Assembly (NCBI RefSeq): GCF_004765815.2
Contig: NZ_SBIS02000007.1
Coordinates: 434,001-498,000 of the forward strand
DNA length: 64,000 bases
DNA from: Halorussus salinus
Lineage (GTDB): Archaea > Halobacteriota > Halobacteria > Halobacteriales > Haladaptataceae
Direction of reading: 5' to 3'
Part shown: one piece after another, positions 5,568-37,117 of the stretch
How positions within the stretch are numbered: the first letter of the stretch is position 1
Layout of the letters: every line of letters starts with the position of its first letter
Notes under the pieces: model-generated
What the model was told of the DNA's origin: nothing
The model's input: the letters and a program-made list of their open reading frames with translations, nothing else
Databases searched by the model: none
Translations under genes and position numbers: made by a program

Positions 5568-6329
5568 CTACGAGTCCGTCGAGTTGCGGGCCTCGTCGAG
5601 CCACGCCGGTTCCGCGACGGTCGTCTCGCCCACGTCCGAGACGTTCATCGAGAACTCGGTCCGGGCCTGCTGGCCCTGTCGGGCGGCCGAGACCTCGACC
5701 GACACCGAGTGGACGACGCCCTGCTGGTCCACCAGCATCGTCGCGTTGTAGTCGGTGACGTTCATCTGCTGGCTCTGAGTCGCGTTGCTCCCGTCGGCTT
5801 CGAGGACGACGAGCGTCGTGCCCTCGACGGTGCGGACGCCGGTCGGCGTGAAGTTACCCGACCCGGCGAACCGGTCGAGGTAGCTCCGGCCGGTGTACGA
5901 CGACGGGACGATTTGGCTCGACTCGGGCGTGCGGTCGGCGACCTGATACCGCGCCTCGCCGTCGGCGACGTTCAAGCGCGTGAATCGCTTCTCCTCGGTC
6001 ACGTAGACCGACACGTCCTGCCCGAGCGCGGAACCGTTCACGCGAATCTCCTCGCGGTCGGCCCCGACGGCGGCGTCGAGCGCGACCGACTGGTTGCCCA
6101 TCGAGGAGTTGACGGTGGACGCGACTTCGAGGGTGAAGCTCTGGTTCTGGAGGGTGTTCTCGTGGGCGTCGGCGAGGGCCGTCAGATTGGTCCCGTTCTC
6201 CGAGACGCCCGCGGGGTACGTTACGTCGTCTAGCGTCTGTGCGCCGTCGCCGCCCGAGAGCGCGCCGGAGCAACCGGCGAGGGCCACGAGGGAGGCGACG
6301 ACGAGCAACTGGAGGGCTTTGCGTCGCAT
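5568..6329 (-). CDS. Secreted lipoprotein, haloarchaeal, function unknown
   Basis: A 253-residue exported lipoprotein. The N-terminus MRRKALQLLVVASLVALAGC is a short signal peptide with an LAGC lipobox, so the mature protein would be lipid-anchored at Cys20 on the outer face of the membrane. The mature part is rich in Asn, Ser and Thr (many NxS/T sites such as NGT, NLT, NQS), which suggests N-glycosylation. It is predicted to be mostly beta structure, resembling LolA/DUF6612-type lipoproteins. No catalytic motif is seen. It is transcribed separately from its neighbours. Confidence 0.8.
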   Translation of the reverse strand: MRRKALQLLVVASLVALAGCSGALSGGDGAQTLDDVTYPAGVSENGTNLTALADAHENTLQNQSFTLEVASTVNSSMGNQSVALDAAVGADREEIRVNGSALGQDVSVYVTEEKRFTRLNVADGEARYQVADRTPESSQIVPSSYTGRSYLDRFAGSGNFTPTGVRTVEGTTLVVLEADGSNATQSQQMNVTDYNATMLVDQQGVVHSVSVEVSAARQGQQARTEFSMNVSDVGETTVAEPAWLDEARNSTDS

Positions 6330-35726: not shown

Positions 35727-36296
35727 TCACCCCTCGCCGCCGTAGCGCCCGCGAAGCCGGTCCGAATCGCCCTCGACCGGCGCAATCGAAAAGTCGAGGG
35801 CGTCGTAGAACGGCCGGACGCCGGGGTCGAACTCCGCGGTCAGGCGGGCGTGGCGCTCGGCCGCGGCGCGGACCAGCGCGGACCCGATGCCCTGCCCGCG
35901 GCGCGCGCGTCGAACCGCCACGGCGTCGATGTGCGCGTCGTGGACGTGCGCGGTGTCGTCGTGCGTGGCGTCGGCGTGTATGGCGTCGTCGCCGTGTGTG
36001 GCGTCGTCACCGGCGGCGTCCTCCTCGGCGTCGTTCCGCCGGACGAGTACCAGCGCGCCGAGAATCGGCGTCTCCCGGTCGGCGGTCTCCACGCAGTCGG
36101 CGGTCTCCTCGCGGGTCGGTTCGCGAGCCACCAACACGTCCCCGACCGCGATGCGCTCGCGGAGGTCCGCGCGCACGTCGAGCATCGCGGCGTCGAGGAC
36201 GCGCCGGACCCCCATCCGGTCGTCGTCGGTGGCCTCGCGAACCACGACGCCCGCCCCGTGGTTCAGAGCGTCGGGACTCGTAGCGTCGTTACTCAC
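35727..36296 (-). CDS. GNAT acetyltransferase with an inserted His/Asp-rich repeat
   Basis: A 189-residue GNAT N-acetyltransferase. The acetyl-CoA motif A is VRRARRGQGIGSALVRAAAE and the C-terminal part is VRPFYDALDFSIAP. Between strands 3 and 4 lies an insertion of about 28 residues built from repeats of D-A-x-H (DDATHGDDAIHADATHDD, then TAHVHDAHID) with seven His. This could bind metal or be simple repeat expansion. The GTG start at 36296 overlaps the TGA stop of the SAMP2-redoxin gene by 3 nt, so the two are coupled. The substrate is unknown. Confidence 0.85.
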   Translation of the reverse strand: MSNDATSPDALNHGAGVVVREATDDDRMGVRRVLDAAMLDVRADLRERIAVGDVLVAREPTREETADCVETADRETPILGALVLVRRNDAEEDAAGDDATHGDDAIHADATHDDTAHVHDAHIDAVAVRRARRGQGIGSALVRAAAERHARLTAEFDPGVRPFYDALDFSIAPVEGDSDRLRGRYGGEG

Positions 36297-37117
36297 CGGT
36301 CTCGCTCCCGGTCGTCGCCGAGGAGCCTCTCGACCATCGCCAGCACGTCGTCCACCGGCGGCCGGTCGTCGGTGCCCTCGCCGCGGTGGACCGCGAACAG
36401 TTCCACGTCCCCGCCGCGGCCGTCCAGAATCGCGGTCTGAGGCAGTCGCCCGAGGAGGTCGTGAAGCCCGCCCAACTTCCCCAGTCGCGTCGGCTGACCG
36501 TACTGCTCGGCGACGGTCGTCTCGGCGTCGGCGACGACCGGGAACGGCAGATGAGTCTTCTGCTGCCACTTCGTGGCCTTCGCCTTCGATTCGGGCAGGA
36601 CCGCGACGACCGCCGCGTCGCGGTCGCGGAACTCGCCGTAGCGGTCGGCCACCGCCCGGACCTGCTCGCGGCACGACCGACTGTAGTAGTCGCGCAGAAA
36701 GAGGAGGACGAGCGCGTCGTTGTCCTCGGGCGGCGTCCGCGTGCGGTTCGGTCGCCGCGCCGCGAGGTCGGGGTCGGCCGCGAGGGCCGAGAGGAGTACC
36801 GGGTCGGGTCCCGCGCCCGCGTTGGGCAACTCGAAGTCGAGTTCCGAGACGCCGAGGGCGTCGGTTCGGGGGCCAGCGACGGCGGTCGGGACCGGGGAGT
36901 CGGCCGTCGCCGAACCGCCGCTCCCGCCCTTGATGAGCCGCAGTACCTTCACGTGGTCGGTCTCGACGGGTTGGTCCTCGGGGACCGGGCGACCGTCCAC
37001 CATCACCGAGACCTCGTGTGGACTCAAATCCACCTTCGCCAGCAGGTCGGCGTAGGTCGCGTCCTCGATTTCGAAGTCGCGGGTCTCCTCGCCGACGACT
37101 TCGACGGTCACGTTCAT
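36293..37117 (-). CDS. Fusion of SAMP2-type ubiquitin-like domain and redoxin domain
   Basis: A 274-residue protein. Residues 1-65 match the small archaeal modifier SAMP2: MNVTVEVVGEETRDFEIED, SPHEVSVMVDGRPVPEDQ, and the terminal VKVLRLIKGG with Gly64-Gly65. SAMP2 normally stops there, because the free diglycine is needed for conjugation to lysines and for tRNA thiolation. Here the frame continues through GSGGS into a peroxiredoxin/thioredoxin-fold domain (ELDFELPNAG, LLFLRDYYSRSCREQ, FPVVADAETTVAEQYG). The redox site has one Cys (Cys149) where CxxC would be usual. It may be a precursor needing cleavage, or a non-conjugating fusion. A GNAT gene is coupled downstream. Confidence 0.88.
   Translation of the reverse strand: MNVTVEVVGEETRDFEIEDATYADLLAKVDLSPHEVSVMVDGRPVPEDQPVETDHVKVLRLIKGGSGGSATADSPVPTAVAGPRTDALGVSELDFELPNAGAGPDPVLLSALAADPDLAARRPNRTRTPPEDNDALVLLFLRDYYSRSCREQVRAVADRYGEFRDRDAAVVAVLPESKAKATKWQQKTHLPFPVVADAETTVAEQYGQPTRLGKLGGLHDLLGRLPQTAILDGRGGDVELFAVHRGEGTDDRPPVDDVLAMVERLLGDDRERDR

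Follow-up and report, generated by a model that had tools for sequence, protein, structure and literature searches.

In eukaryotes, fusions of ubiquitin to ribosomal proteins place a modifier head-first on an unrelated functional protein and supply the two at a 1:1 ratio after cleavage. Among archaeal systems, HvJAMM1 cleaves a linear SAMP1-MoaE precisely after the C-terminal glycine in vitro and also cleaves it in vivo, where the cut restores enzyme function (PMC4443979); hydrolysis of linear SAMP1-3 linkages by the same protease has been described (PMC4048286), and the SAMP precursors of Caldiarchaeum are cut and matured by CsJAMM (PMC6043591). Fusions of ubiquitin-like (Ubl) domains and Ubl precursors matured by JAMM proteases are already known, and the GNAT neighbour of SAMP2 in Halobacteria has been on record since 2010 (PMC2948915). 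In yeast, the peroxiredoxin Ahp1 is the main known target of Urm1, with conjugation coupled to cysteine persulfidation (PMC12954526), and Ahp1 is also conjugated in yeast by a Sulfolobus Urm1 (PMC12645042).

The locus presented here, from a 64,000-nucleotide stretch of Halorussus salinus DNA (the window), carries SAMP2 in frame with a second folded protein, the diglycine lying at the junction, as seen in the open reading frame and the AlphaFold model. It shares its family, its RLIKGG end and its GNAT neighbour with Haloferax volcanii SAMP2 (HVO_0202; 2l32, 4hrs), but Haloferax volcanii SAMP2 ends at the diglycine whereas the Halorussus frame goes on to encode another folded domain. Ubl-MoaE fusions, including the engineered SAMP1-MoaE, likewise join a sulfur-carrier Ubl through the diglycine to a partner enzyme, although they pair a MoaD-type Ubl with a partner in cofactor synthesis, whereas Halorussus pairs a ThiS-branch SAMP2, the only one in its genome, with a redoxin; SAMP1-MoaE is released by JAMM1 (PMC4443979), and such a release is one that we infer for the Halorussus fusion. 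The likeness that we propose to the pro-ubiquitin and SAMP precursors of Caldiarchaeum (PMC6043591) lies in JAMM-type maturation after Gly-Gly in an archaeon, but the Caldiarchaeum ubiquitin precursor carries a nine-residue tail in place of a folded enzyme. The thaumarchaeal Cgi121-Ubl fusion is likewise an archaeal, lineage-wide Ubl fusion, with a KEOPS complex subunit as partner (PMC2948915). Yeast urmylation of Ahp1 also pairs a sulfur-carrier Ubl with a peroxiredoxin, but that link is post-translational and made to lysine, whereas the SAMP2-redoxin link is genetic and runs through the main chain (PMC7016264, PMC12954526). Relative to ubiquitin-ribosomal protein fusions, both the partner and the modifier family differ, and cleavage in Halorussus is presumptive. 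Within the open-licence literature searched, we found no report of a SAMP2-redoxin fusion (an architecture that domain databases may list automatically), none of a genus with the fusion as its only SAMP2, and no mention of SAMP2 together with Halorussus.

Architecture of the SAMP2-redoxin gene

The features of the locus, in window coordinates, are as follows.

36293..37117, minus strand: SAMP2-redoxin fusion gene, ATG to TGA, 274 amino acids plus stop
36923..37117, minus strand: SAMP2 domain, residues 1-65, with the C-terminal end RLIKGG (NF041919 score, AlphaFold pLDDT)
36923..36928, minus strand: diglycine G64-G65, the putative cleavage point, invariant across fused homologues
36854..36922, minus strand: linker, residues 66-88, variable in length and sequence, with no conserved internal start codon
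36296..36853, minus strand: AhpC/TSA peroxiredoxin-fold domain, residues 89-274
36671..36673, minus strand: Cys149, the sole cysteine, aligned with the peroxidatic cysteine of solved peroxiredoxins
35727..36296, minus strand: downstream GNAT acetyltransferase gene, which follows SAMP2 across Halobacteriales

The initial annotation had read residues 1-65 as a complete SAMP2 whose frame runs on into a peroxiredoxin-like domain with a lone Cys149 in SRSC, and had described a GNAT gene coupled to it by an overlapping stop and start. All of these readings are borne out. Two curated models agree on SAMP2, namely PF21965 in Pfam (E=1.9e-30, residues 1-62) and NF041919 in NCBIfam (116.1 bits against a curated equivalog cut-off of 70, residues 1-65), and the nearest solved structure to this part is Haloferax SAMP2 (2l32/4hrs), with a match that extends through the last glycine. 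The redoxin part is matched by AhpC-TSA (E=2.7e-15, residues 134-234) and, in Foldseek, by the peroxiredoxin fold with probability 1.00 (5epf, E=6.9e-10, TM 0.81 on the target); the single cysteine of the whole protein lies in YYSRSC, and the GTG start of the GNAT gene overlaps the TGA of the fusion. AlphaFold pLDDT is 94-97 over SAMP2 residues 1-60 and mostly above 90 in the redoxin, and falls below 50 at residues 64-71 and 73-78, so that the diglycine sits where a disordered linker begins. With 209 residues following Gly65 in frame, the diglycine is not the chain end as encoded, and we class this part of the protein as a SAMP2 domain within a fusion rather than a free SAMP2.

Distribution and origins of the fusion

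The same open-frame fusion is present in 17 of 18 Halorussus genomes, a count that includes the partial metagenome-assembled genome (MAG) G011, which has a later frame break inside the redoxin. The remaining genome, G017, has one base fewer in its G run at the glycine codons, which costs SAMP2 and the redoxin their common frame: SAMP2 closes with GGAV-stop, and the redoxin, now read in a different frame, could begin at an overlapping GTG (L048, G017:C1:3505598-3517792, about 6190-6250). G017 sits well within Halorussus in the tree and may represent either a homopolymer read error or a true split. A profile search over 392 genomes of Halobacteriales recovered open-frame fusions in three further genera, represented by five genomes (G157, G093 and G221 in one genus, G324 and G265). 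An apparent fusion in the MAG G146 has a frame-broken SAMP2 part and was left out of the count. Alignment of homologues across haloarchaea, which the initial annotation had proposed, thus finds the fusion kept in 17 Halorussus and five other-genus genomes, a conservation that leaves no room for chance or sequencing error. That annotation had also allowed for a hidden stop after Gly65 or for homologues lacking the diglycine; the open frame is common to 17 Halorussus species, its conservation across genomes rules out that a stop or a frameshift lies concealed in the window's copy, and every homologue retains the diglycine. Frame problems at this spot do occur in G017 and in G146, with none for the window, but with the frame open in the same way across 17 Halorussus and five other genomes, a sequencing or assembly artefact has a practically negligible probability.

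In a tree of SAMP2 plus redoxin, the G157/G093/G221 group joins G324, while Halorussus and G265 stay apart. A single origin of all fusions was rejected (p-AU 0.003), with four changes on the best tree, and a single origin for all non-Halorussus fusions was not firmly rejected (p 0.056). These topologies point to at least two, probably three, independent origins of the fusion. SAMP2 and the redoxin are unfused neighbours in at least six other families, and the unfused pairs often share a reading frame with a single stop codon between them, which suggests loss of that stop codon as the route to fusion. Plasmid records held only unfused redoxins, at below 60% identity.

The conserved gene order around these genes is rfcS, a bactofilin-like gene, SAMP2, an optional redoxin, GNAT and a phosphohexomutase-like gene, where the bactofilin-like and phosphohexomutase-like labels are our own presumptive reading. 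Several variations on this neighbourhood were seen. The MAG G036 carries an in-frame SAMP2-GNAT fusion (L061:3555-4136, RLIAGG-SVEIR...), a single unconfirmed case, and in the sister MAG G050 a stop codon separates the two genes. The neighbouring rfcS is broken by an intein splicing domain at L032:2173-4479 on the minus strand (Pfam E=3.9e-15), and at L046:1091-4249, also on the minus strand, it is interrupted by a 2 kb insert at a different place.

Evidence for a probable processed precursor

We consider it likely, on comparative evidence, that the gene encodes a ubiquitin-precursor-like fusion that is cut after Gly65, most probably by JAMM1, into SAMP2 and a redoxin partner. Translation of the fusion gene would give a single chain, to be cleaved after Gly65, and the likeliest enzyme for this step is the cell's JAMM1-type metalloprotease. 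This cleavage would free a mature SAMP2 bearing the free diglycine needed for activation by UbaA in tRNA thiolation and sampylation, and the same cut would yield the peroxiredoxin-fold partner at a fixed 1:1 ratio to SAMP2. The cleavage, the protease responsible for it and the functions of the released parts are all steps that we infer.

The initial annotation had suggested looking for a separate SAMP2 elsewhere in the genome. Neither protein nor profile searches found a second SAMP2 in the window's genome, which is 100% complete, so the fusion is its sole copy, and the remaining genomes with an intact fusion also have one SAMP2 each, the fusion being their only one. Across the order, SAMP2 was found in 212 of 214 sampled Halobacteriales genomes, as a single copy in all but one; G079 (99% complete, family f5) had no SAMP2 match at E <= 1e-8. 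With the fusion as the only source of SAMP2 in nearly all sequenced Halorussus, SAMP2 probably has to be cut out of it to work, as happens with ubiquitin in human cells.

The end of the SAMP2 domain is under strong constraint. The 16 full-length Halorussus fusions that were aligned all share an unchanged RLIKGG, and the last ten SAMP2 residues within Halorussus have a pN/pS of 0.033. Over the whole SAMP2 domain, pN/pS is 0.140 in fused genes within Halorussus versus 0.143 in unfused genes of sister genera, and within the Halorussus fusions it is 0.75 for the linker and 0.44 for the redoxin. The linker begins right after the diglycine and ranges from 16 to 54 residues among these fusions. In a set of distinct haloarchaeal SAMP2 genes that is enriched for long frames, the diglycine is kept in 102 of 102, followed by a stop in 62, by 2-24 extra residues in 18 and by long extensions in 22. 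The short-tailed genes include those at L057, L064, L067, L073, L099, L169, L177 and L199. Such tails past the diglycine in non-fused SAMP2 imply that many haloarchaea must trim SAMP2 for use, and SAMP2 maturation may be widespread in this group.

Besides a precursor, the initial annotation had offered a permanent tag or docking unit for the redoxin, and these patterns bear on that choice. In the second case the fusion would be left uncut, its beta-grasp domain would dock or target the redoxin, and thiolation and sampylation would have disappeared or passed to another beta-grasp protein. The window genome does hold further diglycine beta-grasp genes, SAMP1-like and SAMP3-like, as possible replacements, and a binding surface might in principle be what purifying selection keeps in the tail. 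Against this arrangement, the tail and diglycine are constrained as in free SAMP2 though they are not terminal, SAMP2 is nearly universal in Halobacteriales, and the window genome keeps one strong E1-like (UbaA-like) gene and an NcsA-like thiolase-like gene. A permanent docking module would give little reason for the linker-adjacent tail to be the most constrained stretch, and a diglycine substrate in an open linker would need to evade JAMM1. We regard an uncut fusion as quite improbable, and the comparative data taken together (sole copy, tail constraint, presence of the protease and repeated origin) favour a precursor.

The predicted protease is encoded in the same cells. At least two JAMM-family genes, JAMM1-like and JAMM2-like, are present in 18 of 18 Halorussus genomes and in all five other fused genomes, and one JAMM gene in each of these genomes is a strong JAMM1-like match. 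The Halorussus JAMM1 copies that were read are homologous to solved JAMM1 (5lda/5ld9) and have the HxH...S..D motif and the catalytic glutamate intact. JAMM1 is expected generally among haloarchaea, and its presence is for that reason weakly diagnostic.

Free SAMP2 could also arise from the same gene by a ribosomal frameshift or stop, with no proteolysis involved. In its favour, G017 has a run of G here and its SAMP2 ends GGAV-stop, but the fusions have neither a slippery run in common nor a conserved alternative-frame stop after the diglycine, and several are stop-free in both alternative frames for 100 codons, which makes such a release highly improbable. Separate initiation of the redoxin was considered and rejected, as nine fused genes lack any ATG, GTG or TTG between the diglycine and the domain and the candidate starts elsewhere are scattered.

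If cleavage of the precursor does take place, Halorussus would require a JAMM-type protease for any free SAMP2, and JAMM1 would gain a biosynthetic role beyond the removal of conjugates. The locus would then be a natural instance, in an archaeon and beyond the molybdopterin pathway, of the ubiquitin-fusion-precursor strategy.

The redoxin and its pairing with SAMP2

C149 aligns to the peroxidatic cysteine of solved peroxiredoxins, and within the PxxxT/SxxC motif the cysteine and serine are aligned (SRSC) while the proline position is occupied by Arg142. The window protein has no resolving cysteine, and its single cysteine implies that the redoxin is at most of the 1-Cys type and dependent on an outside thiol. 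In a pattern-based tally of the cysteine motif, with three rows misread, homologues mostly have CxxC, with SxxC in six fused proteins and AxxC in some unfused ones; one fused Halorussus homologue, in G007, has CxxS. Given the CxxC of most relatives, the lone cysteine is a local variant.

Because the two genes adjoin, unfused, in many lineages, the redoxin is probably a partner of SAMP2 rather than a chance passenger. The best lead to a reason for the pairing is the yeast Urm1-peroxiredoxin link, taken as a hypothesis by analogy. The redoxin would then be the preferred target of SAMP2 thiocarboxylate, its reactive cysteine becoming persulfidated with conjugation nearby, and the fusion would keep redoxin and SAMP2 at 1:1, a proposal that extends the precursor model and does not replace it. 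The unfused SAMP2 and redoxin neighbours in other families, the peroxidatic position of C149, and the conjugation of Ahp1 by yeast Urm1 with coupled persulfidation (PMC12954526) and by Sulfolobus Urm1 in yeast (PMC12645042) are indirectly in line with such a cognate pair, but SAMP2 is a ThiS-branch protein and no Urm1 orthologue, and the cysteine motif varies among CxxC, SxxC, AxxC and CxxS. We hold this role to be possible while leaning against it. A recurring SAMP2-redoxin pairing, fused or not, is nonetheless a candidate archaeal counterpart of Urm1-peroxiredoxin modification, an actively studied question.

Alternatively, the released redoxin could act as a reductant or sulfur relay for SAMP2 chemistry, for example by resolving persulfide or disulfide intermediates of UbaA or NcsA, a role that is compatible with processing. 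The gene pairing and the CxxC of most homologues would suit such a function, but the lone cysteine of the window protein and the CxxS of G007 indicate that a two-cysteine reductant role is not general, and we judge the relay unlikely. The broadest reading, which is somewhat doubtful and which we offer tentatively, is that the modifier has repeatedly been turned into an obligate fusion precursor with a dedicated peroxiredoxin target, with maturation by JAMM1 setting the supply of both; SAMP2 function would then depend on the desampylase, and an archaeal Urm1-like peroxiredoxin modification would be tied to a single gene. Among the unfused relatives, the SAMP2-adjacent redoxin of one genus (L201:3256-4356 and L203:2320-3465) carries an extra C-terminal extension of about 200 residues.
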